The position numbers and the translations under genes were made by a program. Shown one piece after another: positions 1-32,707 of a DNA stretch of 32,707 nucleotides. Every line of letters starts with the position of its first letter. Within the stretch, counting starts at the first letter, position 1. Where the stretch lies: positions 1-32,707 of IMG/VR virus record IMGVR_UViG_3300032524_000046; one strand, 5' to 3'. The stretch is from a virus. Under the pieces are notes generated by a model. The model was not told the origin of the DNA. It worked only from the letters and a program-made list of their open reading frames with translations, and did no database searches.

Positions 1-62
1 ATTGAGAAAGAGCGCAGATATTGATTAGTGACTGGCAGCGACACACCGCCTTTGCCCAAACC
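1..62 (+). promoter_or_regulatory. Promoter-leader repeat copy A, downstream part (-10 box and leader)
   Basis: This is the downstream half of a segment found three times in the genome; its upstream half is at the very end of the window. The -10 box GATATT lies at 17-22, and a GTG codon follows 5 bases later at 28. The match to copy B (complement of 12916-12977) is near-perfect to base 62. The -35 box seen in copies B and C (TTGAAC / TTGACC) would fall exactly at the window join and is absent from this sequence. It would drive the rightward tail operon. The repeat is seen directly; promoter function is inferred from box spacing and gene orientation. Confidence 0.75.
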
Positions 63-73: not shown

Positions 74-304
74 GTGAAAATACACGCAATAGAAGTACCA
101 ACCTTGGCCACCGCACGCTTGTCACTAGACAAAGCGCTTGGCCTTGCCAACACCATCACGGAAGGTGAAGTGTTGGAAGCCATTGATTCAATCGTTGAAT
201 CAATCACCGGCAACCCACAAGTGATGCGGCAAGCCGCCGTGGAAGATTCCGACCATGACGATGGCTCGGTGGCACCACGCACGCAAGGTGCTTGGCTTGG
301 CTGA
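74..304 (+). CDS. Small hypothetical protein, first gene of tail operon
   Basis: This encodes 76 residues of unrecognised function, starting at GTG 74 just after the leader mini-ORF; no Shine-Dalgarno sequence is visible. The protein is acidic and largely helical in appearance (residues about 14-50), followed by an acidic patch (DSDHDD) and a basic, probably unstructured tail. It lies between the tail tube gene (across the window join) and the tail assembly chaperone, where phages often carry small tail accessory genes. No catalytic motif or membrane segment is seen. The start is uncertain because there is no ATG near the 5' end. Confidence 0.55.
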   Translation: MKIHAIEVPTLATARLSLDKALGLANTITEGEVLEAIDSIVESITGNPQVMRQAAVEDSDHDDGSVAPRTQGAWLG

Positions 305-332: not shown

Positions 333-782
333 ATGGCGGCTTGCACCTTCAAACCAACCAAGGGCCAACAAAAACACATGGTAAAACTTTCACTTGTAAA
401 GACTGATGCCGACCTAGAAACCAACGGAATTTGGGTTGAGTGGGAATTGGGCATCAGGCTACGCATTGCGCGTGCCGGCAACCGTGCCTTTGACACCAAA
501 TTTCAAGCGCTGCAAGAACCATATTTGAACGGCGTGCGCGCCAACACGCTGCCAGCGGCCGTGGCGGAAGAGCTTTTGAAAGAAGCCGTGGCAGAAACCA
601 TCCTTTTGGAATGGGGGAACCTTGAAGGTGATGACGGTGAACCGCTGCCATATTCCGCGCAACAAGCGTTGGAATTCTTCAATGATGAAGCGTTGCGTGA
701 CCTTTACAAATTCGTGTTGGTTACCAGCCAAACGCATAGCCATTACCGCGTTAAGCTGGATGACGACGCCGCAAAAAACTAA
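333..782 (+). CDS. Tail assembly chaperone (lambda G-like)
   Basis: This 149-residue protein precedes the tape measure gene. In siphoviruses this position holds the chaperone that coats the tape measure during tail assembly. Residues 16-60 fit the pattern of phage chaperone proteins (KLSLVKTD, then GIWVEW, then RIARAGN). The 3' end carries the heptamer A-AAA-AAC at 773-779 just before the TAA stop at 780, and the next frame is -1 to this one, so a longer G-T type product is expected from frameshifting. The start was chosen at ATG 333 because its context (ACC-ATG-GC) recurs at many starts here. ATG 378 is a real alternative that would remove 15 residues. Confidence 0.75.
   Translation: MAACTFKPTKGQQKHMVKLSLVKTDADLETNGIWVEWELGIRLRIARAGNRAFDTKFQALQEPYLNGVRANTLPAAVAEELLKEAVAETILLEWGNLEGDDGEPLPYSAQQALEFFNDEALRDLYKFVLVTSQTHSHYRVKLDDDAAKN
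773..779 (+). other. Programmed -1 frameshift slippery heptamer A-AAA-AAC
   Basis: The heptamer is phased X-XXY-YYZ with respect to the upstream chaperone frame (GCA AAA AAC TAA). A -1 slip leads through CTA ATT TCC TGC with no stop and enters the following frame, which runs to 1129. This is the classic arrangement for siphovirus tail chaperones (lambda G/GT, sequence family A/G-rich heptamers). No strong downstream hairpin was worked out. Confidence 0.8.
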
Positions 783-7556: not shown

Positions 7557-9248
7557 ATGGCCACCGTAGCATTTGCCGCCGCCGCCGCCAACGCTGGATG
7601 GACTGGCGCTTCTTACGCCATTGCCGTATCCATTGGCAGCATCATTGACCAAGCATTTGTCATGCCGGTGTTGTTTCCAAGTGACCCGATTGAAGGCATG
7701 CGCGTTGGTGAAATCAATGTGATGGGAGCTGATGAAGGTCTTGGCGTGGCCATGGTGTTTGGTAGCCATGCGCGTGTTGCTGGCCAAGTGGTTTGGGTTG
7801 GTTCACTTCAGGAAGTCCAACATTCAACTAGCGTTGGCAAATCTGGCAAATCCATCACGTATTCCTATTATGTGGATTGCGCGGTGGTCATGGCTTACGT
7901 TGGCGATGACGCCACCACCGGCGTGCTTTCCAAGGTCAATGGAATCTTTGCCGATGAAAAACGAATCTATGATGACTCGTTGCCATCAAGCCAAGCATTG
8001 ACCAAAACGCATTCCGGCGTTGGTGCGGTTCACTATCCATCGGGTGATTTCATCTATTTCAACCCCTATTATGATGCCAACGTGGTCACAGATATGTTTG
8101 ATGTGTTTGACGTTGGTGATGATGTTGATTTTTCCGGCTTTGCAACCGGCGCAAACAATGTCACCGATGACCAAATTCTTGAAAAAACCACCATTGCCGT
8201 TGGCTCTGGCAAAGGTGCCGCCATCTATGATGCTTGGCGCATGTCCAAGGCCAAGGTGACTGAAGGCGAAAGCGGCAGGGCCATCACGGTTGAAAGATTT
8301 GATGCGCAATGGGCTGATGGCATCCAGCGTAATGGCTTATTACCTCAAATATATTTAGGCGGTCAATCCACGGCAGACACGCACATGGTTAATATTCTCG
8401 GTGCGGCTAACGTGCCGGCATGGATGGATTGCGCCTATATGCGAGTTAAAGGCTTGGCGCTCACTGATTTTGGTTCACGCATTCCCAATTGGGAATTCAT
8501 CCTTTCGGCACATGCCGACTTGCACACCGCCGGCGGCGTCATCAATGCAATCCTGAAGGAAAGCGCGCTGCAAGCCAATGAATATGATGTGACCGGCGTT
8601 TCTTCCCCATCGGTGATTGGCTATGCGGTGAAAACGCCAGTGGCCACGGCCAAGGCGCTTCAACCGCTCATGTTGGCATTCAATATCATTGTGCAAGAGC
8701 GTGGCACGGTGGTTTATTTCCTTGACCGCGCCAACCAGATTGCCAACACCATTGCCATTGCTGATGATTTACTTGGTGCGCGGCTTGGTGAAAATGCTGC
8801 CGGTGGCCGTGTGGAAATCCAAGAATCGCCACTTACTGAAAGACTCGGTGAAGTCACCGTGGCGTTTATTGATTCTGATGATAATGACCAAAAAGCAAGC
8901 ATGGCGCGTGCGCAATTCATGGGGGAATCATCAGCGGCCGCACGTGAATCACCAACGCGGTGGAATAGCCTAGCGGTGAATATGCCAATCACGATGACGG
9001 AAAGCAATGCGCGGGAGATTGCGCACCGCATCATGTTTTCCACGCATGCTGATGTTTTGATGTTCAAGTTTACGCTGCCACCACGTTACATGAAGCTTCA
9101 GGAAAATGACCGCGTTTCATTCACGGCCGGCGGCGTTGCCTATTCGGCAATGATTCAAAAAATAGATGTTGGCGCGCAAAACATCTTGATGGTAAAGGCA
9201 GCGCTTGACGTTGCATCAGAAATGGATTTCTCAATCTGGACTGCATAA
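7557..9248 (+). CDS. Tail hub / tip attachment protein, N-terminal half of the gene-transfer-agent-type hub
   Basis: This 563-residue protein starts at ATG 7557. Residues about 60-120 carry the hub signature VFGSHARVAGQVVWVGSLQEV, then a glycine/serine loop and TYSYYVDCAVVMAYV, then VNGIFADEKRIYDDSL. This fits the putative phage tail protein family (Tail_3 type) at the baseplate hub. The first 45 residues contain a hydrophobic stretch (AVSIGSIIDQAFVMPVLF), also common in these hubs, perhaps to insert into membrane. The rest is beta-rich hub domain. The final part normally fused to this domain is encoded by the separate next gene, one base downstream. Confidence 0.8.
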   Translation: MATVAFAAAAANAGWTGASYAIAVSIGSIIDQAFVMPVLFPSDPIEGMRVGEINVMGADEGLGVAMVFGSHARVAGQVVWVGSLQEVQHSTSVGKSGKSITYSYYVDCAVVMAYVGDDATTGVLSKVNGIFADEKRIYDDSLPSSQALTKTHSGVGAVHYPSGDFIYFNPYYDANVVTDMFDVFDVGDDVDFSGFATGANNVTDDQILEKTTIAVGSGKGAAIYDAWRMSKAKVTEGESGRAITVERFDAQWADGIQRNGLLPQIYLGGQSTADTHMVNILGAANVPAWMDCAYMRVKGLALTDFGSRIPNWEFILSAHADLHTAGGVINAILKESALQANEYDVTGVSSPSVIGYAVKTPVATAKALQPLMLAFNIIVQERGTVVYFLDRANQIANTIAIADDLLGARLGENAAGGRVEIQESPLTERLGEVTVAFIDSDDNDQKASMARAQFMGESSAAARESPTRWNSLAVNMPITMTESNAREIAHRIMFSTHADVLMFKFTLPPRYMKLQENDRVSFTAGGVAYSAMIQKIDVGAQNILMVKAALDVASEMDFSIWTA

Positions 9249-9249
9249 C

Positions 9250-10359
9250 ATGGTTGCCCCCGTCTATCGCGCCACGCGGCCAATCTTGCATGTGCTGAAT
9301 CTGCCGGCGCTTTATCCCACCGATGAAGCGCGGCCAATGCTTTACATTGCAGCGCGCACCGGTGCCGGCCACATGGCCACCACCGCCGCGATTTCGGTCT
9401 ATATCAGCCGTGATGGCGGCACCGTTTATGAATACGCCATGGAATTGCCGGCGCATGCCACCATGGGCATGGTGGTGGCCGTGGAAGGCAACCCATTCAC
9501 CGCTGATGGTGCCTTGGTATATCCAAGTGATTCAAGCGTGGTGGAAACATGGGAGCGCAACGTGTCTTTGCCAATCCAATGGTATGGCGGCTATGCGCCG
9601 CAAACGGTCACGGAATCGGCCGCGCTGGATGGCGCCAACGCCGTGGTGGTTGGTGAAGAGGTTTTGCAATATATGACCGTTGCGGCAACCTATGGCACCG
9701 GCCTTGGCGCCACGGATAGAAGCGGCAATGGCATTTGGCACCATTCTGATTTGTTGCGCGGCCGCCAAGGCACGGAAGGTGAATGCGCGGCCATGGATGC
9801 CGGCATGGTGGTCATTGTGGTAAACCCTTCATCATTGGTTGGCTTGCCGCTTTTGCATTCAGACATTGGCCGCACGCTTCACATCAAAGCCGCCACGCCA
9901 GGATTGGATTTGACCGTGGCGCCGGTGGTTGAAATAGTCTTTGCCGGCCGCAACCTTCAGCCGCACGCACCAACGCACGTGAATGGTGTGCGTGATGCTT
10001 CCAACAATCTCACCATCGGTTGGACACGCCGCACGCGGTCACAAGTTAGATTGATGGGCGTGAAGGCTTTGCCTTACGGTGAAGACACCAATGATTACAT
10101 GGTGGAGATTCTAAGCGTGGCAGAACCCTACACCGTGTTGCGCACCATCCAGGTTGCCGCCGCCGAGCAAACCACCTACACCGCCGCCGAGCAAGCCACC
10201 GATGGATTGACCGCCGGCAACTTGGTAAACATGCGCATTTATCAGAAATCAAACGCGGCCGGCTTTGGCCTTGCTGGCACATGGCGTGTTCCCGCCAACA
10301 CCGGTGGCGCCGCCACGCCAACGCCTGATGAAGTTTTAATGGCTGAAAGAAGGGATTGA
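9250..10359 (+). CDS. Tail hub C-terminal part, separate gene
   Basis: This 369-residue protein starts at ATG 9250, one base after the previous TAA. The central segment (about residues 130-185) matches the hub C-terminus: VVVGEEVLQYMTV, then HHSDLLRGRQGTEGE, the LLRGRxGTE block typical of this family, then VVIVVNPSS. Residues from about 240 look like a fibronectin-III-like domain (PTHVNGVRDASNNLTIGWTRRTR). Together with the preceding gene it would make a complete hub of about 930 residues. An earlier in-frame ATG at 9205 lies inside the preceding gene and is less likely. Confidence 0.8.
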   Translation: MVAPVYRATRPILHVLNLPALYPTDEARPMLYIAARTGAGHMATTAAISVYISRDGGTVYEYAMELPAHATMGMVVAVEGNPFTADGALVYPSDSSVVETWERNVSLPIQWYGGYAPQTVTESAALDGANAVVVGEEVLQYMTVAATYGTGLGATDRSGNGIWHHSDLLRGRQGTEGECAAMDAGMVVIVVNPSSLVGLPLLHSDIGRTLHIKAATPGLDLTVAPVVEIVFAGRNLQPHAPTHVNGVRDASNNLTIGWTRRTRSQVRLMGVKALPYGEDTNDYMVEILSVAEPYTVLRTIQVAAAEQTTYTAAEQATDGLTAGNLVNMRIYQKSNAAGFGLAGTWRVPANTGGAATPTPDEVLMAERRD

Positions 10360-10363
10360 ACCA

Positions 10364-11032
10364 ATGACCACACCAAAATTAGTCTTGAAAACGCTTGTGG
10401 AAGGACAAGCAAACAGTGAACCCACCGTGAATGAAACATTCTTGGTGATTGAAGCTTTGTTGGCCGGCCGCGTGGAAAATGACACCTTGACGGTGCCGGC
10501 CGGCTCTGAATCAAATGGTGACGTCTACTTGGTTGCGGCGGCGCCAACCGGTGCTTTTGCCGGCCAAGCTGGCAAGTTGGCAATCAAGGTGAATGGTGCG
10601 TGGATTTTCAAAGCGCCAACCGGTGGCTTGCAAATGTTCAATCACGCATTGAAGGAATTGCAATGCTACAGCAGCCAAGAAAGCGCTTGGTTTCCGGTGC
10701 AACCACGGCACAGCACTACAGAGCATTGGACTGGCAAATATTGTGAAGCCGGCGCCAAGATATATGCCAAATGTTTTGAAGGCTTGGCGTGTCCAAACAG
10801 CACTACCACCAACCATGCGCATGGCATTACCGGCTTGGTGGTCACCAAACGCATTTGGGTTGAAGGCTCATTGAATGATGGCACCACGGCCGGTGCGTGG
10901 AACGTAGCCAAGGCCGCTGGCGGAGGAACCTACATTCATGCAGACATTGACGCCACCAACATCAAGTTGACTTCCAACCAAAACATCAGCGCTTACATCG
11001 CAGATATTAGGTTGGAATACAGCAAGACCTAA
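10364..11032 (+). CDS. Tail fibre / receptor-binding protein, DUF2793-like
   Basis: This 222-residue protein is the last gene of the tail operon. Residues 1 to about 95 fit the DUF2793 pattern (VNETFLVIEALL, VPAGSESNGDVYLVAAAPTGAFAG, AIKVNGAWIFKAPTGG). The C-terminal part contains HSTTEHWTGKYCEAGAKIY, a motif common in phage fibre tips (ST-E-TGK-DGK-IY), followed by beta-rich sequence ending RLEYSKT. It probably trimerises and contacts the host surface. The stop overlaps by 4 bases the end of the converging leftward operon, so transcription from both sides meets here; no terminator hairpin is obvious. Confidence 0.75.
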   Translation: MTTPKLVLKTLVEGQANSEPTVNETFLVIEALLAGRVENDTLTVPAGSESNGDVYLVAAAPTGAFAGQAGKLAIKVNGAWIFKAPTGGLQMFNHALKELQCYSSQESAWFPVQPRHSTTEHWTGKYCEAGAKIYAKCFEGLACPNSTTTNHAHGITGLVVTKRIWVEGSLNDGTTAGAWNVAKAAGGGTYIHADIDATNIKLTSNQNISAYIADIRLEYSKT

Positions 11033-11217
11033 GCCACGCGGATTGATTCCCATTTCCATGTGATGGCGCCGGCGGGAATAATGCCGCCGCCTACTTCACG
11101 GAATACCACAAAGCATTTTTGCGGTTCTGGATTCTTGCCAAAGCGTGTGGAAACATACCGGTGGCACAAGACGTTGCGCACATTGCTGAAGCCATCGTGG
11201 ACTTCCATCCATTTCAT
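11029..11217 (-). CDS. Small hypothetical protein, last gene of leftward operon B
   Basis: This 62-residue basic protein is of unknown function (MKWMEVHDGFSNVRNVLCHR at the N-terminus, GGGIIPAGAITWKWE near the C-terminus). It starts by ATGA overlap with the preceding 27-codon frame, and its end converges on the tail fibre gene with a 4-base overlap. The alternating pattern suggests a small beta-rich fold. No membrane segment or catalytic motif is seen. Confidence 0.6.
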   Translation of the reverse strand: MKWMEVHDGFSNVRNVLCHRYVSTRFGKNPEPQKCFVVFREVGGGIIPAGAITWKWESIRVA

Positions 11218-11297
11218 GGCGGCTTGGCACGCGGCTTGGCACGTGGCGTGCGCCGCACGGAAGAATAAATGACGGTCAATCGAAAGGTGATTTTCAT
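11214..11297 (-). CDS. Micro-ORF, 27 codons, coupled
   Basis: ATG at 11297 opens a 27-codon basic frame (MKITFRLTVIYSS, then an Arg/Pro/Lys-rich tail with two copies of PRAKPRAKP-type units). It lies 13 bases after the upstream stop and ends in an ATGA overlap with the next gene, fitting the overlap style of the whole operon. It could be a real micro-protein or simply a coupling device. Its short length makes this uncertain. Confidence 0.35.
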   Translation of the reverse strand: MKITFRLTVIYSSVRRTPRAKPRAKPP

Positions 11298-11310
11298 TTG
11301 ATTTTCCGCA

Positions 11311-11619
11311 TCACTGGTCACCTTCACGCGCGGAATATTCGGCCGAGTATTCACCGGAAACCGTGAAGGTGACCGCATCAGCTTCAGCTACACCGTTGGC
11401 AATGGAATATTCGGCCGATTCGCAGTCTTCCCATTCTGCCCAAACTTCCGCGGCGGTTTCCGCGGAATCGGCGCGGTGGTGCTGCCCATAATCCAAGGCA
11501 TCTTGCATGGTGCCATTCAGCGGATTCCAGACAACCCAAAGCGGCTTGCAGCGGTGCGCTTTGCCGTAAAGAATCGTAGCGACAGAGGGATATTCGCCGC
11601 ATTCTTTACAACGTTCCAT
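11311..11619 (-). CDS. Hypothetical zinc-knuckle protein
   Basis: This 102-residue protein begins with MERCKECGEY and has HRC near residue 22, so an incomplete CxxC...HxC metal-binding site is possible. A tryptophan-rich segment (WVVWNPLNG) follows, and then an acidic C-terminal half containing two EYSAEYSA-like repeats. The start overlaps the end of the upstream gene by 14 bases. The acidic charge and small size are typical of phage host-takeover proteins, but no function is assigned. Confidence 0.6.
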   Translation of the reverse strand: MERCKECGEYPSVATILYGKAHRCKPLWVVWNPLNGTMQDALDYGQHHRADSAETAAEVWAEWEDCESAEYSIANGVAEADAVTFTVSGEYSAEYSAREGDQ

Positions 11620-11914
11620 GATTCCCCCCGTGCCGATAGGCGCATTTTAAGCCGTTCTGGCGCACGCCAGCTTGCGCGTGCCAAATCATGCGCCATTTCA
11701 GCCAATCGGCCAGCACATCAGGCCGCGTGGCTGGATGCACGCAAATCACGATGATTTGCGCCGGCAAAGAAAACAACGCGGCAAAGAAGGCAACCAAATG
11801 CGGAACCATGAAGCGCCGCATGGCAGAGATTTCACCGCTGACTAGGCGGCGCCGTTTCCGGTGGTCAACTGCTAACCTTCCGCACCGCGCTGATGTGTTA
11901 TGCCAGAAGCGCAT
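11606..11914 (-). CDS. Small membrane protein, one predicted segment
   Basis: This 102-residue protein has a single hydrophobic segment at about residues 36-58 (MVPHLVAFFAALFSLPAQIIVI), flanked by basic residues. The N-terminal 31 residues are very basic and may be untranslated if an internal ATG (at 11821) is used. It overlaps the ends of both neighbours. Together with the adjacent 39-residue membrane protein it could be a holin/antiholin-like pair, but there is no endolysin beside it, so this is only a possibility. Confidence 0.5.
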   Translation of the reverse strand: MRFWHNTSARCGRLAVDHRKRRRLVSGEISAMRRFMVPHLVAFFAALFSLPAQIIVICVHPATRPDVLADWLKWRMIWHAQAGVRQNGLKCAYRHGGNHGTL

Positions 11915-12017
11915 AACCTAAAATTCCAACGATTTGGAAAAGCACAATTCCGATGGTTTCCAGCTTTGTGAAGCCGTCTTTCAGCGGTGTGCGTGGTGGG
12001 AGTTTATGGTCTTTCAT
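11898..12017 (-). CDS. Short single-span membrane protein, 39 residues
   Basis: ATG 12017 opens a 39-codon frame ending at TAA 11900-11898. The N-terminal 19 residues are charged and soluble (MKDHKLPPRTPLKDG), and the C-terminal 18 form one membrane segment (IGIVLFQIVGILGYALLA). It starts 4 bases after the stop of the upstream gene, and the next gene starts inside its last codons. The clean amphipathic/membrane layout and tight packing support a real gene. It may be a holin-like or membrane regulator peptide. Confidence 0.55.
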   Translation of the reverse strand: MKDHKLPPRTPLKDGFTKLETIGIVLFQIVGILGYALLA

Positions 12018-12021
12018 GGTT

Positions 12022-12366
12022 TCAATCAAGTTTGGTGGATTTGGTCATGGTGCCGCCTATCACGCCGCAACACCGCTGGCGTGCTGCCGCCAAGACGGCT
12101 TGCCACACAAACGGTTGGTGCGCAATCAGCGTGGACACCGGAAGATTGCCTTGGAATTGCTCCACCACCATGCGGTCATGGAAGAAAACGCCAAAGGCCA
12201 GCACCACCGCAATTTCATTGGCAGGATGTTGCGATTCAGTCACCAAGATTTCCGTGGTGCCGGCCAGGATGCCTTCAGCGTGCATGGTTGCCAGCGGTTG
12301 AAGGCCGCACGTGCAATCGCTGATTGGCGATTTGCACGCAGGGCAAAGGTGTGTGGCCGTGGTCAT
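12022..12366 (-). CDS. Hypothetical protein with N-terminal zinc ribbon
   Basis: This 114-residue protein opens with CPACKSPISDCTCG (residues 8-21), a four-cysteine CxxC...CxC knuckle likely to bind zinc. The rest (AEGILAGTTEILVTESQH, NEIAVVLAFGVFFHD) resembles an alpha/beta domain with a hydrophobic core but no recognised family. It starts by ATGA overlap with the upstream gene, so it is translationally coupled. Zinc ribbons in small phage proteins often bind nucleic acid or host RNA polymerase; that role is only inferred. Confidence 0.6.
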   Translation of the reverse strand: MTTATHLCPACKSPISDCTCGLQPLATMHAEGILAGTTEILVTESQHPANEIAVVLAFGVFFHDRMVVEQFQGNLPVSTLIAHQPFVWQAVLAAARQRCCGVIGGTMTKSTKLD

Positions 12367-12905
12367 CCTTTCAGGCGTGCCAGCTCGGCCTTTGCATTTT
12401 TTCTGGCCACCTTTTCTTCAACTTCATGCACCATTTGTGCATTGTGACTTTCTTCAGCCGATTGCGCGCCGGCAAGCAAGTCTTCCACGCGCACCAACAT
12501 CTTTGCTAACGGCTTGCCGGCCAAGCATGGGCGGTCAATCCGGTTGCCATATTTGCCGCCGGTGCGGCGTGAAATGGAATCCTTGCCGGCATGTTTCCAA
12601 CTGCCAATGTCATACGAAATGCACCAATCAGAATATTCATTGCCGGCGCTTGGCTGGCCAATGCGCATGGAAACTTCCGCGCCACCAACCATGCTGATGG
12701 TTGCTGCCAAACATTTCTTGCGCCACCGGCCGGCGCCATCGGTCTTGGTGTTGAAGTCAATGGTTTCCACATTCTCCAAGCCGGCGATGTGTGAAAGGAT
12801 GTTGGCGCAATCTTCAGCCATCCAGGTTGGCACGGCGTAGTTGTCATTGGTGATGGCGCGCTCGACAATGAAAGCCGGCGAAACGGTAAGTGAAAGTTTT
12901 TCCAT
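12363..12905 (-). CDS. Hypothetical protein, first gene of leftward operon B
   Basis: This encodes 180 residues from ATG 12905, or 195 if translation starts at the leaderless GTG 12950, which is in frame and opens with the conserved leader peptide MTGSGTPPLPKP. It has an N-terminal part with VPTWMAEDCANILSHIAG, a central beta-rich part (AATISMVGGAEVSMRIG, DWCISYDIGSWKHAG), and a charged helical C-terminus (EEKVARKNAKAELARLKG). Weak resemblance to the gene at 17469-18269 (LPWWVAADMARLANHF and a W-rich middle) suggests an old duplication. Function is unknown. It is transcribed from repeat copy B. Confidence 0.65.
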   Translation of the reverse strand: MEKLSLTVSPAFIVERAITNDNYAVPTWMAEDCANILSHIAGLENVETIDFNTKTDGAGRWRKKCLAATISMVGGAEVSMRIGQPSAGNEYSDWCISYDIGSWKHAGKDSISRRTGGKYGNRIDRPCLAGKPLAKMLVRVEDLLAGAQSAEESHNAQMVHEVEEKVARKNAKAELARLKG

Positions 12906-12915
12906 GGTGGTGTTT

Positions 12916-13045
12916 GGTTTGGGCAAAGGCGGTGTGCCGCTGCCAGTCACTAATCAATATCGGCGCTCTTTCTCAATTGTTCAACCATAAAGCCAACAAT
13001 CTTGCAACAAAGCCGCGTGCGTGCCGTGGAAGGCCAGCACGCGGC
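12916..13045 (-). promoter_or_regulatory. Promoter-leader repeat copy B
   Basis: Read on the minus strand, this has a -35 box TTGAAC (complement of 12979-12984), a 17-base spacer and a -10 box GATATT (complement of 12956-12961), then 5 bases to GTG at 12950. Upstream lies a hairpin with 9-bp arms 13012-13020 and 13037-13045 and a 16-base loop. The whole block matches copy A, whose hairpin shows a compensating base-pair change. It should drive the leftward operon 12905-11029. The hairpin might also end transcription from the upstream operon, although only TTTG follows it. Confidence 0.75.
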
Positions 13046-13054
13046 AAAGATAAA

Positions 13055-13366
13055 TCAGAAGCTAACAGCATCACGCCACGCTTGGCGGCGCTCTTGGCGT
13101 GTGGAGCGCGCCAAGCATTCATCACAGTAGTGGCTATGACGGTGCCGCCAGATTGCACGTGCGGTGCGCCTTTTCCGGCAACTGATGTTGTCGCACACCT
13201 TTGGAATTTTCGGCGTGCGCCAGTTGCCAACATGCCTTGGCGGCCGTGATTCTATGAAACGGTTGACTTGCGCGCCGGTTGATTTGGTCATGGCTGAAAT
13301 GGCATTCATGGCGGCCAACATGGCCAGCATTCCAGGCGATTTGCGCCGGTTGGGTTTGTCTTTCAT
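13055..13366 (-). CDS. Hypothetical zinc-finger-like basic protein, last gene of leftward operon C
   Basis: This 103-residue, very basic protein has a putative metal site formed by CDNISC (residues 58-63) and HYCDEC (79-84), separated by a basic helix-like stretch. The pattern resembles HNH/zinc-finger DNA-binding modules, but no HNH catalytic triad can be assigned. It starts in an ATGA overlap with the preceding gene and ends about 10 bases before the repeat B hairpin. A nucleic-acid-binding role is a reasonable inference only. Confidence 0.55.
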   Translation of the reverse strand: MKDKPNRRKSPGMLAMLAAMNAISAMTKSTGAQVNRFIESRPPRHVGNWRTPKIPKVCDNISCRKRRTARAIWRHRHSHYCDECLARSTRQERRQAWRDAVSF

Positions 13367-13611
13367 CTTAATTTATTTCTACGGGTTGGCCGCTCGGTTG
13401 CGGCAAGGATGGCAAACATTTGCACCGGCAAAGAAGTGGTGCATTGGCGTTGCCGTTGGATGCGCACCGCGCCACGTTTCACCAACGCGGTGCGCGTTTG
13501 TTGGCTAACCTTTTTGCACCACACTTCCACCGGTAGTGTGAAGGTTGGCGTGGCGGCAAGCAAAGCCATGGCAGCTATTTGCAATGGTGAAGGGTAAAAG
13601 TATTTAGTCAC
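13363..13611 (-). CDS. Hypothetical protein, possible helix-turn-helix
   Basis: This 82-residue basic protein starts at GTG 13611, overlapping the end of the previous gene. The N-terminal LQIAAMALLAATPTFTLP, then VEVWCKKVSQQTRTALVKRG, has the look of a helix-turn-helix with a basic recognition helix. It ends in a basic tail and an ATGA overlap. No family is recognised. The GTG start is chosen from the overlap; there is no ribosome site to confirm it. Confidence 0.5.
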   Translation of the reverse strand: MTKYFYPSPLQIAAMALLAATPTFTLPVEVWCKKVSQQTRTALVKRGAVRIQRQRQCTTSLPVQMFAILAATERPTRRNKLR

Positions 13612-13852
13612 GGGTTACTTGCACATTCATCGGTGGTTGCGTGATTCCCATGATTGAGATTTGAACAAATGCGCCACAGTTTAGGCGGCGCAACTCTTCC
13701 GGCGTTGGTTGCCAGAAAGAAGAGTATCCACCACCTTCAGCATCAAGGTGCCTTTGAATCGGAAGGTTTGGAACATCCACCACGCCATTTGGAGGGCTCA
13801 CTGGTTGACCAGTCAACACGGCATTGCATTCAGGAAGCTTGGTTGGAATCAT
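13604..13852 (-). CDS. Hypothetical protein
   Basis: This 82-residue protein starts by ATGA overlap. It is proline-rich at the N-terminus (ECNAVLTGQPVSPPNGVVDVP), with FWQPTPEELRRLNCGAFVQISIMG towards the C-terminus, a pattern seen in small phage proteins of unknown role. There is no membrane segment or catalytic signature. It is part of the coupled leftward operon C. Confidence 0.55.
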   Translation of the reverse strand: MIPTKLPECNAVLTGQPVSPPNGVVDVPNLPIQRHLDAEGGGYSSFWQPTPEELRRLNCGAFVQISIMGITQPPMNVQVTRD

Positions 13853-14406
13853 GCTTGGCCTTTTGCTAAATAATCTTTCAGCGCTTCATGCTCTTCAGCG
13901 GCCGGACATTCATCCACCGCACCGAAGACCGTGTGATGCCATTCCATGGTGCCATTCACTTCAACTTCCACCACCGGCAAGAATTCATCAAACATGAAGC
14001 CACGGCATGTTGAGCATTCAACAATGATGGCATGCCGCAATGCGCCGGTTTTAAGGTCACGCAACTCAGCGCGCAAGGCAATGCCTTCATCTTGCAGAAT
14101 GCCAAGGCTTTCATGGCAATGCGCAATGTGGCTATTTGCGGCGCCGATGAAGCGCCGGATGTGGTTAGCGTCACCTTGGCCGTGTTGGGGTTGGCTTAGG
14201 TTGTCTGCCACACGCTGGATTTCCCATTCCAGCGCCGCCAGCGCCACCGTGCCGGCGGCTTTATTGTCCAAATAGTGTGCATCCATGACGTGGCGCAAAG
14301 CGGTGCCGGCAGCTTGATGTGCGGCTCGGCCGTTTGGGCTTGTCGTTCTCCAAAATCGCAACGCTGCCATGATTGCAGGATGGTGATAGGTGCGGTTCTT
14401 AATCAT
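13849..14406 (-). CDS. Hypothetical protein with CxxC motif
   Basis: This 185-residue protein starts by ATGA overlap at 14406. The first half is helical (residues 27-115, with a coiled-coil-like GILQDEGIALRAELRDLK). A CSTC motif at about 131-134 precedes an acidic beta-like stretch (FLPVVEVEVNG), and the acidic C-terminus contains CPAAEEHEALKDYL. The CSTC could be half of a zinc site with the later cysteine and nearby histidines. Function is unknown. Confidence 0.6.
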   Translation of the reverse strand: MIKNRTYHHPAIMAALRFWRTTSPNGRAAHQAAGTALRHVMDAHYLDNKAAGTVALAALEWEIQRVADNLSQPQHGQGDANHIRRFIGAANSHIAHCHESLGILQDEGIALRAELRDLKTGALRHAIIVECSTCRGFMFDEFLPVVEVEVNGTMEWHHTVFGAVDECPAAEEHEALKDYLAKGQA

Positions 14407-15059
14407 GCGCCAGCTCCTTCATGGCGGAATTCCCACCATGCGCGGAAGACCAAAGAAAGGGCTTCATTGGCGGCAGCTTCCGGCACAAAATATTGCCCCT
14501 CGTGCATGCCAATCCACACATCCAACGCATCGGCCAGCGCCACCGGCACCGCAACAAAACGTGCCATGGCGCTGGCCTTGCCTTCCACGGATTCCAGGCA
14601 GTTAATCACGGCCAGCTTGCGCACCACCGGTTCAACCGCACGGCCGCACCGCACGTTCAAGCCGTGGCGGCCGCCGTAATCTTCAAGGTCAACCGGCTTG
14701 CCGCTTTCCACGGTGCAAACCACCTTGCTTTCAAGGTCACTTTGCAAGCGTGCAAGATGCCTTTCCAAGCGTGCAAGTGAATCTTCCATCAGCGTGAAGG
14801 CATTACCAGTTTCTTGCCACGTGGCAAAAAGCAATGATGCAATTTGTGTGCTTTGAATTTCGGAATCGGCATTATTCAGCGTTTTGATGTGTTCATTGGC
14901 TCTTGTGATTATGCGCATCAAGCTTGAAGGCAATTTGACACGCCAAGCCTTCAAAACATTTGGCACAGTGGCAAGCACATAGAGTGCGGTCACGCGCCTT
15001 TCAAGGATTGACATGATGGCGCCCGTTCTGGCGCCGGTGGTAGGTTCTGAATCAGTCAT
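14403..15059 (-). CDS. Hypothetical helical protein
   Basis: This encodes 218 residues from ATG 15059, which follows the upstream stop by one base (TAACATG). It is largely helical, with a coiled-coil-like stretch at about 95-125 (LMEDSLARLERHLARLQSDLES) and a tryptophan/phenylalanine-rich C-terminus. No catalytic motif is seen. Operon position suggests an early or DNA-metabolism related role, but nothing in the sequence shows it. Confidence 0.6.
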   Translation of the reverse strand: MTDSEPTTGARTGAIMSILERRVTALYVLATVPNVLKAWRVKLPSSLMRIITRANEHIKTLNNADSEIQSTQIASLLFATWQETGNAFTLMEDSLARLERHLARLQSDLESKVVCTVESGKPVDLEDYGGRHGLNVRCGRAVEPVVRKLAVINCLESVEGKASAMARFVAVPVALADALDVWIGMHEGQYFVPEAAANEALSLVFRAWWEFRHEGAGA

Positions 15060-15060
15060 G

Positions 15061-15342
15061 TTATTTTTTGGGGTTTCTGGTTCGGTAGGCAATCCAAGAT
15101 GCAATGGTCATTGCCATCACTCTGCGGATTTGTTCTTCATTACAGCCGGAATCAAGTGCTAAAAGCCACGTATCCAGCTCTTTTGAACTGGAAGCCGGCG
15201 GTGCCGTTTCAGGGAAAAGGATTCTTGGCAGCCGCATCAGACACCAAAGCAGCGCCATGGTCGAACAAAGCAGCGCGGCCATGGCCAGCATGCAAAAGGC
15301 CATTTGGAGTGCGCATTCAAACACTAGATTGAAGGCCGGCAT
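15061..15342 (-). CDS. Small membrane protein
   Basis: This 93-residue protein starts at ATG 15342, joined to the preceding stop as TAATG. A long hydrophobic stretch covers about residues 8-33 (two helical turns rich in Met, Leu, Cys and Ala), followed by a soluble C-terminal domain (SSKELDTWLLALDSG, EEQIRRVMAMTIASW). The topology is likely N-terminal anchor with a cytoplasmic domain. A holin or membrane-anchored regulator is possible. Confidence 0.55.
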   Translation of the reverse strand: MPAFNLVFECALQMAFCMLAMAALLCSTMALLWCLMRLPRILFPETAPPASSSKELDTWLLALDSGCNEEQIRRVMAMTIASWIAYRTRNPKK

Positions 15343-15608
15343 TATTTTGCAGCTCCACGCCGGCGCCAAGCTTCAGCGGCTTTGGCACCGGCTTTGGCCG
15401 TTAAGATTTGCGTATCATGCCACCGGCGTGAGCGCAAAATGTAGCCTTTGGCTTCAATGCTGGCCAAGTGGCACGTGATGGTGGAGCGTTTCAGGCCAAC
15501 AAATGCAGCCAAGTCTTCATGTTTAGGCACGGCGCCGTTGGATTTCATCATTGTGCGCAAGCCATTGAAAACAATTTCTTGGCAGCGTGTAAGTGGTGGT
15601 CTTTTCAT
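15342..15608 (-). CDS. LexA-type winged-helix DNA-binding protein
   Basis: This encodes 88 residues from ATG 15608, chosen because it gives the ATGA overlap used throughout this operon (ATG 15632 is 8 codons upstream). The pattern LTRCQEIVFNGLRTMM, then VPKHEDLAAFVGLKRSTITC, then HLASIEAKGYILRSRR follows the winged helix of LexA N-terminal domains (LT-RQ-E-L, G-xPS-EIA--LGL-S-S-V--HL--LEKKGYI-R). There is no C-terminal peptidase domain. It is the best transcription regulator candidate in the window. Confidence 0.7.
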   Translation of the reverse strand: MKRPPLTRCQEIVFNGLRTMMKSNGAVPKHEDLAAFVGLKRSTITCHLASIEAKGYILRSRRWHDTQILTAKAGAKAAEAWRRRGAAK

Positions 15609-16054
15609 TTTTTCGTTGGGTTGGTGCGCCATGCTTGAATGCGGCGTGACCTTGCATCAGCGCGCAAGGCTTTTGGCCATTGGCCGGTTGGTGTTATTAG
15701 GTTTGACATGGCGGCGCGGGTTAAAAGCGCGCCCCATGAATTTGATTTGATTGCCGTCATGCAAACGTAATCTTTGGCCGCCGGCGCAATCCACCATGAA
15801 CCAGCGGCAAAGGCACGCACATCTTCAACCGTGAAGGCAGAACCGGTTACCCATGGCAACCGTGCAATGAAGGCATCAAACATGCGATTCATGGCCGGCA
15901 CATACCACGCATTCGCAATGCGCGCTTGGCCATTTGCTTTGCGCTCGGCGCCAGTGCGCTTGGCGGCCGCCGCATCAGCAATCACCGCGGCTTCACTGGC
16001 CGGCATTGGTGTGCCGGCAAAAAGTGTGGCTTGTTTCATTGGTTTTGGTTTCAT
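15605..16054 (-). CDS. Hypothetical protein, possible winged helix
   Basis: This 149-residue protein starts at ATG 16054, two bases after the upstream stop (TAACCATG); ATG 16039, preceded by AAACCAAAACCA, is an alternative. The C-terminal half, with FTVEDVRAFAA, then SNSWGALLTRAAMSNLITPTG, then ADARSRRIQAWRTNP, resembles a phage winged-helix pattern (ED-R, NAWGALFRRA-R-GLI-PTG, R--VW). A replication- or recombination-linked DNA-binding role is plausible but not shown. Confidence 0.55.
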   Translation of the reverse strand: MKPKPMKQATLFAGTPMPASEAAVIADAAAAKRTGAERKANGQARIANAWYVPAMNRMFDAFIARLPWVTGSAFTVEDVRAFAAGSWWIAPAAKDYVCMTAIKSNSWGALLTRAAMSNLITPTGQWPKALRADARSRRIQAWRTNPTKK

Positions 16055-16056
16055 GG

Positions 16057-17175
16057 TTAAAATGACACGTCATCATTTGCCATCATGCCAAAATCATTTT
16101 CGTGCGGGAAATCCGCCGCGCTTTGATTCTCATTTTCAGGCTTTGGCACGTTGTCTGGTGCCGCGCCAATGGGGTAACCATTTTCATCAAAGCCGTGTTT
16201 CAGCATCTTGTATTCCTTCATAATGCCAAAGGTATCAGGAACCTGAAGCATTACCATGCCGGTGTCTTCAAGAATGCCGAGAATGTCACGCGCTTCATGC
16301 AGCTTGCTCAAAGCCCATTGTGATTTGCTTTTTCTAGTGTTGTTCCATGTGTCTACACCAAAAACGGCATCATTGAATGATTTGTATTTAGTGGTTGGCT
16401 TCCACCAACCCTTTGCGCCATGGAATTTGCCAACGTGGTCAAATATCAATCCCTCCCATTTACTACGCGCTTGATGCGTGCATTCACTAAAGCACGCCAT
16501 CAGTGTATTCCATTCCGTTGGCAGCTTCACCGCTTCAGGAAACCAGCCATTGGATTGTGATGCGTCACGGATTCGCGGGTCTTGGCTATGGTTTGGCGTG
16601 CCATCGGCGTTGGTTGCTGGCGGCATCGGCGCCGCCGCCGCTTGGTTCTGGTTTTGGTTCTGGTTTTGGTTGGCCGGCGGTGGCTGGCCATTTCCGTTGC
16701 CTTGGCGGTGCCAGTCACTTGACATTTCATCGGCGCCGTATGCCCACCTTGAAGCACCGACCATGGCCAATGTGCCACGCACCTTCAAACGCTTCCACGC
16801 CATTTCCGGTGAATGCGTTGATTCTGGATTGTTCACCACCGGCAGCGTTACTTGTTCCTTGCCGTTGGCATTAGTTTGCCGGTAAAAGGTCTTGGTGCCG
16901 GTATTGAATCGACAACTTCCGATTTCCTGAAGCGTGCGGCCGGCCAATTCTGGCGTCTTCCTTCCTTCACAAGTGAAGGTGCCACGGTAAGCCACAAAGA
17001 CGCTGCCAACGTCGCAATGGTCAATCTTCATGGTGATGCCTTCCGCACGCTCAATTGCTTCAGCGCCGTTTTTGGTCACGCACCACGTATTGTGCGCCTT
17101 GTAAAAATCAGCATCTTTGCCATCTTTCAGGCCGTATTTGTCTGCCAATGCAGACATGAATTCGTTTGCATTCAT
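16057..17175 (-). CDS. Candidate ssDNA annealing / binding protein with SSB-like acidic tip
   Basis: This 372-residue protein is counted from ATG 17175, preceded by a run of ACCAAAA units. In the N-terminal domain, HSPEMAWKRLKVRGTLAMVG (about 121-140) resembles the EMAEKRAKDRAVLK helix of phage annealing proteins, with an upstream GRTLQEIGSCRF. A low-complexity linker (about 165-190, alternating N and Q, then Ala/Pro) leads to a second, tryptophan-rich domain. The C-terminus is acidic and ends NDDVSF, similar to the DDDIPF tip by which bacterial SSB recruits partners. This combination suggests a DNA recombination/replication role. Family membership needs a profile search; it could also be an unrelated protein. 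Confidence 0.45.
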   Translation of the reverse strand: MNANEFMSALADKYGLKDGKDADFYKAHNTWCVTKNGAEAIERAEGITMKIDHCDVGSVFVAYRGTFTCEGRKTPELAGRTLQEIGSCRFNTGTKTFYRQTNANGKEQVTLPVVNNPESTHSPEMAWKRLKVRGTLAMVGASRWAYGADEMSSDWHRQGNGNGQPPPANQNQNQNQNQAAAAPMPPATNADGTPNHSQDPRIRDASQSNGWFPEAVKLPTEWNTLMACFSECTHQARSKWEGLIFDHVGKFHGAKGWWKPTTKYKSFNDAVFGVDTWNNTRKSKSQWALSKLHEARDILGILEDTGMVMLQVPDTFGIMKEYKMLKHGFDENGYPIGAAPDNVPKPENENQSAADFPHENDFGMMANDDVSF

Positions 17176-17244
17176 GGTTTTGGTTTTTGGTTTTTGGTCA
17201 TGGCATTGTTGCCGGTTAAATGCTTGCACATTGTTGGTTCTTTG

Positions 17245-17472
17245 TCAACCGCCAAGGCCAGCGACAATGCCGGCGCGGATTTCACCATTGAGAAGGTTTA
17301 ACCATTCCCCTTTAGTCTTTGGCGTGTCAACTGATTCACGCTTGAAGCCGCGTTGGTATGGCTCGGCAGCGCGCCAAGCGGTTGCCATGGTTTGCGCTTC
17401 CGCTTTGGTTGGTGCGTATTGGCGGCCGACTACGGCGCCGCCACGCATGAAGGTAATGCGGTGTAGTGTCAT
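17245..17472 (-). CDS. Small hypothetical protein
   Basis: This 75-residue basic protein starts by ATGA overlap at 17472. It begins with a beta-hairpin-like MTLHRITFMRGGAVVGRQY, followed by a helix (TKAEAQTMATAWRAAEPYQ) and ends in a glycine-rich tail. The layout, two strands then a helix with AxAxxxA..WR, resembles short phage proteins that bind nucleic acid such as Arc-like or integrase N-terminal modules, without a confident match. A gap of about 70 bases with ACCAAAA repeats separates it from the next gene. Confidence 0.5.
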   Translation of the reverse strand: MTLHRITFMRGGAVVGRQYAPTKAEAQTMATAWRAAEPYQRGFKRESVDTPKTKGEWLNLLNGEIRAGIVAGLGG

Positions 17473-18269
17473 CGTTGGTACTTTGGCAATTGATTGGCCG
17501 GTGGAATCAGTCTTTCAACCAAATCCACAATGGTTTGCATTGAAGCCGCAAGCGCAAGGTTATGGCCAAAAAAGAGCGCAAAGAATCCTTTGCCGGCCAC
17601 ACGGATTTCAAGCGCACCAAAGGCGCTTTCAAGTGCCACGTTGTTGGATTCATTAAGCGGCCAACGCATGGCCTTGGCCAGCTCCACAAGCTTGGCTTGC
17701 GCGGCTTCACGTTCTCCATGCCGCGCACGGTCACGCTTCTTGGCTTGCTCCATCAGGCTGATGCGCTCGGCGTCAATCTCAAACAGGAACATGATGTGTT
17801 GCACCATTTCGTGGAATTCCCTATCAGCCATCGGCGGCTTTGGCGGCGCTGGCGCGGTGGTGCCGGCACCATACACGCCAAAACCTTCCATGCCGGCTTT
17901 CCAGCGGTCTTTAGTGTCATGTTGCCGGCCGCGTGAACGGCGGCGGCCATGGCCAACGCTCCATTGGCCGCTTCCGGCGGTCACGCTCCATGATTGAATG
18001 CCGTGCATCATTCCAAGCGTGGTATATGAAAAGCTGACACACGCGCCATCAGGCCGCTTTAGATTGAAGCAAAAAAGCGCACCAACCGGTGAACAAGTGA
18101 ACACGTGAAGCGCGCAATCACCGGTGAAGTGATTGGCCAACCGCGCCATATCGGCCGCAACCCACCAAGGCAATGCGCGGCCATCTTTCTTGGCCGCGCA
18201 TTGGAAAGTTTGAATGAGCGCCGCATCAGCGCTGTTTGCCGTGTAAGTGGTTGTTTTGGATTTAGGCAT
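17469..18269 (-). CDS. Hypothetical protein, 266 residues
   Basis: Start ATG 18269 lies 2 bases after the upstream stop. The N-terminal domain (about 1-105) has LPWWVAADMARLANHF and a beta-rich core with a tryptophan-rich SWSVTAGSGQWSVGHG. A basic patch RRRSRGRQHD (about 109-118) and a proline-rich linker follow. The C-terminal half is a charged helix (about 175-215) and a hydrophobic segment. Weak resemblance to the product of 12363-12905 is noted. There is no recognised family or active site. Confidence 0.55.
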   Translation of the reverse strand: MPKSKTTTYTANSADAALIQTFQCAAKKDGRALPWWVAADMARLANHFTGDCALHVFTCSPVGALFCFNLKRPDGACVSFSYTTLGMMHGIQSWSVTAGSGQWSVGHGRRRSRGRQHDTKDRWKAGMEGFGVYGAGTTAPAPPKPPMADREFHEMVQHIMFLFEIDAERISLMEQAKKRDRARHGEREAAQAKLVELAKAMRWPLNESNNVALESAFGALEIRVAGKGFFALFFGHNLALAASMQTIVDLVERLIPPANQLPKYQR

Positions 18270-18271
18270 TG

Positions 18272-18622
18272 TTATCCACCCTGAATCAAATGAATGCGGC
18301 GCAAGGTTTCACGGATTTCACCAAGCTGTTTGGTTCTCCCCAAATCAAGTGCATATTTGGCCAGTTTGCACAGCATGGCTTCAGCAAGATTTAGTGTTTG
18401 CTCCAAATCGTTGGTGCGGATTTCGGCGGCCGTGGTGCTTTCCCACGGCTCGGCGGCATCCACCACCGCCAGCACTTCAGTGGCAATGGCGTTGCCGTTG
18501 GTGTGTGCCAAATCGTTGCGCAATGCGTAATTGTGCAGCACATCAGAGCCACGCATTTTGGAAGCGTGCAACCACACGGAAAGTGCGGTGGCGGTGGAAT
18601 CGGAAAGTAAAATCTGTTTCAT
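18272..18622 (-). CDS. Hypothetical helical protein
   Basis: This 116-residue protein starts at ATG 18622, preceded by ACCAAACCAAAACC instead of a Shine-Dalgarno sequence. It appears all-helical, with NDLEQTLNLAEAMLCKLAKYALDLGRT at about 71-97 followed by a basic terminal helix. It is 16 bases downstream of the first gene of the operon. No function can be assigned. Confidence 0.55.
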   Translation of the reverse strand: MKQILLSDSTATALSVWLHASKMRGSDVLHNYALRNDLAHTNGNAIATEVLAVVDAAEPWESTTAAEIRTNDLEQTLNLAEAMLCKLAKYALDLGRTKQLGEIRETLRRIHLIQGG

Positions 18623-18638
18623 GGTTTTGGTTTGGTGG

Positions 18639-19070
18639 TTATTTGGTCACACAATTGGCGTGCTTGGTGGCGGCGCGCACGGCGCCATGAACCGTGTTGA
18701 ATCGGCGCAAGGTCACGCGGCTTGATTCAAAGGCAGCTTGGTGGTGCAACTCAAAGACGCGGTTGATATTCCCGCAAGTGATGTTGTTGATGGTGTAAAT
18801 GTCGCCACCATTCACGGTGGCCGACTTCATCACCAAGAAGGATGGTTTCTGCCACGCCAACAAGATGTGTTGGCATGGCTTCCGCCGGCGCACCGCGGCA
18901 AGGAATGGCGCAAGCGAGTCACCGGAAAGGCAACATGTCTTTTCATGGTAGGCGGTGCTATTCCTTACGTCCAAGGCTTGCGGCCGCACCATTGCTTCCA
19001 CAAATCCTTCCGCACCATCTTGGATGATGGAAACCTGCCAGCCGTTGGCAAAGTTCAAAGTAATGTTCAT
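18639..19070 (-). CDS. Hypothetical protein, first gene of leftward operon C
   Basis: This 143-residue protein starts at ATG 19070, overlapping (ATGA) the stop of the leader mini-ORF from repeat C. It contains several cysteines (TCC near residue 45, KPCQH, TCGN) and ends with a basic helix (GAVRAATKHANC). It is the promoter-proximal early gene on this strand, a position often used for host takeover, but the sequence gives no recognised function. Confidence 0.55.
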   Translation of the reverse strand: MNITLNFANGWQVSIIQDGAEGFVEAMVRPQALDVRNSTAYHEKTCCLSGDSLAPFLAAVRRRKPCQHILLAWQKPSFLVMKSATVNGGDIYTINNITCGNINRVFELHHQAAFESSRVTLRRFNTVHGAVRAATKHANCVTK

Positions 19071-19117
19071 TTATTCTTTCGTTTGGTTTGGGCGGCGCGG
19101 TTTGCGCTGCCAGTCAC
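19067..19117 (-). CDS. Leader mini-ORF in repeat C (16 codons)
   Basis: GTG 19117, 5 bases after the -10 box, opens the frame MTGSANRAAQTKRKNK. Its TGA overlaps the ATG of the next gene (ATGA), so it would feed ribosomes directly into the operon. The MTGS start is shared with copies A and B, and the rest has diverged into a basic tail. Leaderless initiation is inferred from spacing. Confidence 0.4.
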   Translation of the reverse strand: MTGSANRAAQTKRKNK

Positions 19118-19178
19118 CAATCAATATCGGCGCTCTTTCCCGATTGGTCAACCATAAAGCAAACAATCTTGCAACAAA
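19081..19178 (-). promoter_or_regulatory. Promoter-leader repeat copy C
   Basis: On the minus strand this shows -35 TTGACC (complement of 19146-19151), a 17-base spacer and -10 GATATT (complement of 19123-19128). The -35 is the best match to consensus of the three copies. Identity with copies A and B continues upstream through TTTGTTGCAAGATTG, then stops where the parS-like site begins. It should drive the 13-gene leftward operon 19070-13055. Confidence 0.75.
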
Positions 19179-19192
19179 GTTTCACGTGGAAC
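19179..19192. promoter_or_regulatory. parS-like palindrome GTTTCACGTGGAAC
   Basis: This 14-base site fits the broadly conserved ParB-binding consensus GTTYCACGTGRAAC at every position, with one half-site of the Bacillus type and one of the Caulobacter type. It is the only such site seen in the window. It sits directly upstream of promoter copy C and beside DnaA-box-like sequences. No parA or parB gene is recognised here, so the partner would be host ParB. Confidence 0.6.
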
Positions 19193-19267
19193 CTTTGGCC
19201 GCAATCCAGCCGCCGTGGATTCACGGTTGCAGCGGCTTTCAAGTATTCGGCCAAATGGCCGTGTGCG

Positions 19268-19287
19268 TGTTGATAACGTGTGGAAAA
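19268..19287 (-). promoter_or_regulatory. Two adjacent DnaA-box-like 9-mers
   Basis: On the minus strand, TTTTCCACA (19287-19279) fits the relaxed consensus TTWTNCACA and TTATCAACA (19276-19268) differs from TTATCCACA at one base. They are in the same orientation, 2 bases apart. Chance occurrence of one such site is common; the pair next to a parS-like site and AT-rich repeats is what makes it notable. Confidence 0.4.
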
Positions 19288-19357
19288 GTGGTTGGCGCTT
19301 TGTGCATCCATTTCCCTTGCCAACCGCCGCCGGACTCTCTACGCTCACTTGCGTTCG

Positions 19358-19399
19358 CTGAATTCAATTCGCACCATGTTCCCATTTCATTGAATTCAG
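19358..19399. repeat. Perfect 11-bp inverted repeat, AT-rich
   Basis: CTGAATTCAAT (19358-19368) and ATTGAATTCAG (19389-19399) are exact reverse complements around a 20-base loop. Five T residues follow on the plus strand, so it may form a weak terminator rightward, or serve as a protein-binding or origin element. No gene on the plus strand ends just upstream, which argues against a simple terminator. Confidence 0.6.
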
Positions 19400-19419
19400 T
19401 TTTTATGGGTTCTCTTATG

Positions 19420-19460
19420 GTTGCTAAAATCAATTTCAAAAATTGTATATAGCAACAATT
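19420..19460. repeat. Nested short inverted repeats in AT-rich stretch
   Basis: GTTGCTA (19420-19426) pairs with TAGCAAC (19450-19456), and AATTGT (19441-19446) pairs with ACAATT (19455-19460). The two pairings overlap at ACAA, so they are alternative structures or operator half-sites. The AATTGT/ACAATT hexamer recurs in the palindrome just downstream. Confidence 0.45.
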
Positions 19461-19467
19461 CTTTGTT

Positions 19468-19485
19468 CACAATTGGCCAATTGTG
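19468..19485. repeat. 18-base perfect palindrome CACAATTGGCCAATTGTG
   Basis: An exact 18-base palindrome lies 4 bases beyond the stop codon of the leftward gene 19490-19873. It could be a dyad operator for a dimeric regulator or part of a replication or packaging site. A terminator role is weak because no T-run follows directly on the minus strand. Confidence 0.6.
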
Positions 19486-19489
19486 CGCA

Positions 19490-19873
19490 TCAGCTTCCAA
19501 TGCCAACGGAAGCCGATGCACGTGCCGGCGCACTGGCCACGCCATCAGGAAAATCCAAATCAAGCGCTTCCATGGCCGCCACCATCAGGCCGGCAGCGCG
19601 CTCTTGGTCATCGGCGGTTTCAAAGTCTTGGTTGGCCAGCACGCCTTTGGCAATGCACGTTTCCAACAACCAGCGGCCAGCTTCAGCGGCAAACACCAAC
19701 CGCTCACGCTCTTGCAGTAGTCTTGAAAGAAGACCACGATTCACGCCAACATGGCCGCCGGCCATCTTTATTGGCGCCAACATGCGCAACTCATTCACTG
19801 AAAGCGCCTTGAATTTGGCGCATGGCACATCGTCAATGCGCTTGTAATTCGGTGGTGTTTTGGGCTTGGCCAT
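19490..19873 (-). CDS. Hypothetical protein, divergent to terminase operon
   Basis: This encodes 127 residues from ATG 19873 (MAKPKTPPNYKRIDD). An upstream in-frame extension to 19981 would run into the terminase start and is rejected. It is largely helical (RGLLSRLLQERERLVFAAEAGRWLLE at about 46-71), acidic at about 86-110 and with a small-residue C-terminal tail. It is the only leftward gene between the origin-like region and the terminase genes, a place where regulators often lie, but no DNA-binding motif is convincing. It is separated from the rightward terminase start by about 110 bases, in which I see no convincing promoter. Confidence 0.6.
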   Translation of the reverse strand: MAKPKTPPNYKRIDDVPCAKFKALSVNELRMLAPIKMAGGHVGVNRGLLSRLLQERERLVFAAEAGRWLLETCIAKGVLANQDFETADDQERAAGLMVAAMEALDLDFPDGVASAPARASASVGIGS

Positions 19874-32611: not shown

Positions 32612-32645
32612 CCCGCTCCGGCAGCAATGCCGGCGCGGGTTTTTT
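32612..32645 (+). terminator. Rho-independent terminator after tail tube gene
   Basis: The stem CCCGC-t-CCGGC pairs with GCCGG-c-GCGGG around AGCAAT, with one mismatch in the stem, followed by six T (32640-32645). It closes the packaging-head operon just before the upstream half of promoter repeat A, so the tail operon is probably an independent transcription unit. Confidence 0.9.
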
Positions 32646-32707
32646 CTTGGTGTGCTGGCATTCCACAGCACGCACACGGCTTTGTTGCAAGATTGTTGGT
32701 TTTATGG
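32646..32707 (+). promoter_or_regulatory. Promoter-leader repeat copy A, upstream part
   Basis: This is the upstream arm of repeat A, ending at the window edge with TTGTTGCAAGATTGTTGG. It contains a hairpin with arms GTGTGC (32650-32655) and GCACAC (32672-32677) and a 16-base loop. Copy B has the same hairpin with a C-G pair where A has T-A. The following bases (the -35 box in copies B and C) are missing at the window end, and the rest of the promoter is at positions 1-62. Confidence 0.7.

Follow-up and report, generated by a model that had tools for sequence, protein, structure and literature searches.

Genome organization and location of the repeat

The window analysed here (32,707 bases) is the whole IMG/VR virus record IMGVR_UViG_3300032524_000046, which is classed linear and comes from a small uncultured tailed phage. 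The + strand has an apparently complete set of siphophage structural genes, and leftward genes occupy 11.0-19.9 kb. One non-coding repeat was found at three places, with its copy A split between the two contig ends. The features are as follows.

1..62, +, copy A, downstream half at the contig left end, with 16 bases of spacer, GATATT (17-22) and leader
74..304, +, 76-aa ORF with a GTG start, 51 nt after the GATATT of copy A
378..782, +, tail assembly chaperone (annotated ORF from 333)
reaching 11032, +, tape measure and tail genes
11029..12905, -, leftward block headed by copy B, its first gene at 12363-12905
12916..13041, -, copy B, intact, with hairpin (GCCGCGTGC...GCACGCGGC), then upstream tract, promoter-like core and leader
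12956..12984, -, promoter-like core of copy B, TTGAAC-17-GATATT
13055..19070, -, leftward block headed by copy C, its first gene at 18639-19070
15342-15632, -, LexA-type wHTH in the C block (LexA_DNA_bind, Pfam 1.6e-7)
16057-17175, -, protein of the C block conserved with relatives
19085..19190, -, copy C, intact
19123..19151, -, promoter-like core of copy C, TTGACC-17-GATATT
about 19.9-20.6 kb, +, TerS
20.6-21.9 kb, +, TerL
within the structural set, +, portal, head morphogenesis, scaffold and major capsid
31402-32580, +, major tail protein
32612..32645, +, intrinsic terminator behind the major tail protein gene (from sequence and fold)
32652..32707, +, copy A, upstream half; contig right end, stopping before the -35

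The portal is 36% identical to those of the nearest named phages, several of which belong to Mesyanzhinovviridae (YuA-like). The closest fragments (L011, L012 and L110) match the window at 69% identity in TerL. DNA polymerase, helicase and integrase were not recognised among the leftward genes (11029-19873), unlike in relatives of 56-64 kb, which carry replication genes; the window may represent a reduced genome or may encode very divergent replication genes. For the chaperone, ATG 378 is a likelier start than the annotated 333, because relatives begin about there and because it resembles the start region of the first gene behind copy B.

Two further repeats were noticed in the window. A 32-nt segment occurs twice (31/32 identical), at 10765-10796 (+) within a tail gene and at 14934-14965 (-) within a leftward gene, in different frames; its length exceeds that expected by chance. 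A lysine-rich repeat of KKKVTKK units with a 15-base period lies at 19981-20191, in the N-terminal part of the ORF containing the small terminase subunit.

Identity of the three copies and the contig ends inside copy A

The preliminary description had claimed three dispersed copies of one segment, and alignment supported this far beyond chance. BLAST within the window gave 89% identity between B and C over 101 bp (E 1.5e-29), with 93% over an ungapped core of 75 nt; the two differ at 9/93 positions plus 2 gaps. Against B, the upstream half of A was 93% identical (56 nt) and the downstream half 97% (62 nt). A and B are the closest pair, differing at 3/88 core positions (97% over the core). A profile built from the three copies recovered B, C and the two halves of A; no fourth copy was found in the genome, the next match scoring 6 bits. 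A terminator-like hairpin at the upstream side is common to A and B and absent from C. Its presence at the start of these two copies suggests that the cassette also marks a boundary between transcription units.

A -35 hexamer, an exact 17-base spacer and GATATT had been described as shared by all copies. This holds for B and C. In copy A, the contig ends with ...TTTTATGG and starts with ATTGAGAAAG..., and the seven bases between them (TTGAACA in B, TTGACCA in C) are absent from the record. Copy A thus lacks its -35 and the first spacer base there, so the exact 17-base spacer can be read in B and C only.

The genes at the contig ends are the major tail protein (right) and the chaperone (left). 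Among relatives, 20 loci have the chaperone within about 10-234 bp behind the major tail protein, and the same order is present in ctIqW946, phiH1, A1432 and MW2. Since the contig-end genes are neighbours in these relatives, the circle would close inside copy A, and a circular genome of about 32.71 kb broken inside this copy is the simplest reading. The joining of the ends was inferred from synteny, not read. Assembly breaking at a repeat is the ordinary cause of such a break. Loss of ~25 kb between the contig ends was also considered, as most named relatives are 56-64 kb, and was rejected because the end genes adjoin in relatives.

Both contig ends fall within one cassette and exactly seven bases are missing, as would be seen if the break were a physical genome end, with the seven bases forming a 3′ overhang (cos site) lost in library preparation and the repeats serving as packaging sites. 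We consider this very unlikely. Copies B and C retain the seven bases despite the same flanking sequence, and the terminase genes (~19.9-21.9 kb) are about 11-13 kb from A; uncut B and C together with the distant terminase genes argue against a 7-base 3′ overhang. Moreover, in the relative ctIqW946, whose record is circular, the tail genes keep this order over the junction. It is equally improbable that copy A is a repeat-caused misjoin or truncation rather than a genuine third cassette. Copy A is known solely as contig ends, and assembly breaks typically fall inside repeats; however, each of its flanks is unique and keeps the synteny of relatives, in which the chaperone follows the major tail protein, and several bases in its halves set it apart from B and C.

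Placement, promoter-like core and leader

Every copy is non-coding and in sense with its genes, with 10-14 nt between its end and a start codon (GTG 74 for A, ATG 12905 for B, ATG 19070 for C), which bears out the proposed sense orientation directly upstream of gene blocks. Only 2.0% of positions in the window could host a fully non-coding 95-bp segment, and 9% of those would also place it in sense and 5-25 nt before a start; 3/3 copies do so. Spacing between GATATT and the start codon is nearly constant (51 nt in A, 50 nt in B and 52 nt in C).

The cores of B and C show sigma70-type organization (near TTGACA, near TATAAT, 16-18 bp apart), although the agreement is weak: scored against TTGACA/TATAAT, C matches at 9/12 positions and B at 8/12. 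The hexamers alone are not above chance, a scan giving 7 sites with 6.2 expected. Pfam, applied to 20 ORFs lying outside the main structural block, detected no phage sigma factor or RNA polymerase that could use the cores as its promoters. Downstream of the core, a leader of ~50 nt turns A/C-rich and has no Shine-Dalgarno motif ahead of the start codon. At least 80% A/C in the 20 nt upstream was found for 6/36 gene starts, including the first genes behind B and C, versus 2.2% of all ATGs. Translation from these leaders is probably independent of a Shine-Dalgarno motif. A/C-rich runs such as AAAAACCAAAAACCAAAACC, likewise with no Shine-Dalgarno motif, were noted at starts 12905, 17175, 18622, 19070, 333 and 22733.

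We consider it likely, on the basis of repeat, placement, orientation, spacing and analogous cassettes in kin, that the repeat is a transcription-start cassette for the host polymerase, copied within the genome to three blocks. The cassette would consist of the upstream tract, a sigma70-type promoter (TTGA[A/C]C-17-GATATT) and the ~50-nt leader, and host RNA polymerase with the housekeeping sigma factor would most likely initiate at every copy. Copy C would drive a leftward (early-type) operon at 13.1-19.1 kb and copy B the leftward operon at 11.0-12.9 kb. Copy A would drive the 76-aa ORF and probably also the tail genes behind the terminator. The head/packaging block (from ~19.9 kb, +) has no cassette copy, so late genes are not uniformly under the cassette. 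This head block is closed by the terminator at 32612-32645 (CCCGC.CCGGCA..TGCCGG.GCGGG followed by TTTTTT), just upstream of copy A.

The cassette had been assigned to the tail operon and both leftward operons. Three blocks are indeed headed by copies, but the gene immediately behind A is the 76-aa ORF, which has no Pfam or PHROG match and no match among the related loci searched. In relatives this ORF is absent from that place between the major tail protein and the chaperone. Because it intervenes ahead of the chaperone, "tail operon promoter" is only one option for A. The constant distance from GATATT to GTG 74 favours ORF 74-304 being a real gene. The 28 bp between it and the annotated ORF 333 showed no terminator, and the tail genes may therefore be served by copy A as well. 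Morons are extra phage genes with their own promoter and terminator, situated between genes that are adjacent in relatives. The terminator, copy A and the 76-aa ORF resemble a moron in lying between genes that neighbour each other in relatives, with ORF 74-304 splitting a pair adjacent in 20 of them. They differ in that the terminator precedes the cassette and none was seen behind the ORF.

The start region of the first gene behind B (ACCAAACACCACCATGGAAAAACTTTCACTT) has the chaperone start (CCAACAAAAACACATGGTAAAACTTTCACTT) as its best non-self match in the genome, scoring 17 versus 12 for the next; 0/5000 shuffles reached 17. This match, together with A and B being the most similar cassettes, suggests that cassette and gene start may once have been copied as a unit, with ORF 74-304 inserted behind A later. 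The first gene behind B is also weakly similar to a gene of the C operon, 17469-18269 (z 5.1). The copies themselves would have arisen through duplication inside the genome, and their near-identity could also be explained by recent duplication without selection. Recombination between copies, the risk raised in the preliminary description, is plausible; no recombinant was seen.

A common regulator of the three blocks, for example the encoded LexA-type wHTH, is possible; on the other hand, identical promoters may simply share the host polymerase. Conservation reaches well past the hexamers and the C operon encodes a LexA_DNA_bind protein, as might be expected if the main role of the conserved unit were to be bound, as an operator or within the leader RNA, by a phage factor (for instance the wHTH at 15342-15632) that switches the three blocks together. 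This appears unlikely. Inspection by eye revealed no palindrome kept in all copies, and no compensatory changes were found in a leader hairpin, which was not used further. Moreover, the wHTH travels with the 16057-17175 gene in relatives and also weakly matches replication initiators.

Other known elements were searched for. Rfam gave no match to the cassette. CtrA-controlled phage promoters have clustered TTAA-N7-TTAA sites in intergenic gaps (PMC9437464); the window contains 4 one-mismatch CtrA boxes versus 5.75 expected, none inside the cassettes, and this reading was rejected because the sites were not enriched and were absent from the cassettes. DnaA boxes were fewer than expected. Directly upstream of copy C, at 19178-19193, lies a near-parS palindrome (AGTTTCACGTGGAACC) with 2 mismatches to the consensus, the 14-bp core of which resembles chromosomal parS; at a looser limit of 3 mismatches, at least one such site occurred in 39% of shuffles.

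Comparable cassettes in relatives and in known systems

Related phages had been suggested as a place to look for the same cassette, and its sequence was absent from all searched relatives. Three parts of the cassette, used as DNA patterns against IMG/VR, gave no match once the window's own record was left out, BLAST against phages and plasmids gave none, and the cassette profile reached only E 0.6 at best against 179 related loci. As the sequence is kept in no relative, cross-species conservation lends the motif itself no support.

In the close relatives L011 and L110 (TerL about 69% identical), a sigma70-like TTGCAA-16/17-TAGAAT or TAAACT occupies the place of copy C, followed by an A/C-rich leader with CAAACCAAAC or CAAAACCCAAAAT before the ATG. 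Repeated cassettes of other sequence emerged when 117 loci of 9 kb or more, the window among them, were each compared with themselves, calls being made by reading alignments; the cases inspected were selected and do not amount to a controlled test. Besides the window, 22 loci contained dispersed repeats, some of which are coding paralogues. L046 has four dispersed copies of TTGACG-16-TAGAAT/TAGGAT followed by ACCACAAAACCAA, AAGGAG/AAGGAA and ATG, with leaders likewise A/C-rich. Nine related copies (E < 0.001) occur in the L174 record (49,468 bases), every one on the same strand at 16.5-25.6 kb; each of three inspected precedes a start codon. Bordetella phage MW2 has two copies of TTTACT-17-TATACT ahead of annotated starts, and L057 has a similar pair of promoter-leader repeats. 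L106, L103 and a long MW2 pair are less clear as cassettes. The cassettes of L046, L174, L057 and MW2 resemble that of the window in being a promoter-like segment plus leader, in sense before start codons. They differ in sequence, which is particular to each phage, and in having Shine-Dalgarno-like motifs; L046 and L174 also have more copies.

The repeat is dispersed over both strands at high identity in this genome only, which would fit a neutral or mobile repeat that happened into a few intergenic gaps. However, its orientation and distance to three start codons are fixed, and the same architecture recurs in kin with other sequences, making such an origin extremely improbable.

Repeated regulatory start elements in phage genomes are already known (PMC3203893, PMC4351075). 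In cluster K mycobacteriophages, a 13-bp SAS site (GGGATAGGAGCCC) is tied to translation starts, often accompanied by the 17-bp inverted repeats of ESAS (PMC3203893). The window's repeat is similarly a phage-specific element directly upstream of gene starts of varied families, as are SAS/ESAS, mostly in one orientation (PMC3203893). It is distinguished by a unit of ~100 bp with promoter hexamers, in which a conserved inverted repeat was not seen; in sequence and structure it is not a GGGATAGGAGCCC-type site. In cluster O mycobacteriophages, SigA promoters have been predicted and 17-bp repeats described, and deletions there were put down to recombination among the repeats (PMC4351075). As in the window, several host-sigma-type promoters start separate operons on both strands and repeats are dispersed, whereas the cluster O repeat is a palindrome mostly off promoters and the window's repeat is the promoter-like segment itself (PMC4351075). 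Given the comparable repeats of related phages, repeated start cassettes look like common phage gene wiring, not a new type of system.

Finding the dispersed promoter-leader repeat peculiar to a phage points to its likely transcription starts even when no host is known, and so gives a handle, from sequence only, on operon structure in uncultured phages. The cassette also suggests where small inserted genes such as ORF 74-304, and a shared regulator, might be sought. As a tentative and rather doubtful extension, YuA-like kin might copy one phage-specific promoter-leader unit to several operons, with gene conversion, possibly by their own recombination protein, keeping the copies alike. If so, each phage would have a private promoter family that a single regulator could re-set and that could travel with new genes.

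Other rearrangements were observed among the related loci. L016 has a 133-nt perfect inverted repeat (8815-8947 and 9186-9318) ending at the contig end, which is probably an assembly artefact. In L114 (1-9992), the early block (the 16057 homologue, then the wHTH) points at the terminase genes, the reverse of its direction in the window and L011, which is an inversion between relatives. In L112 (9020-12230), the major tail protein gene is present three times in tandem.
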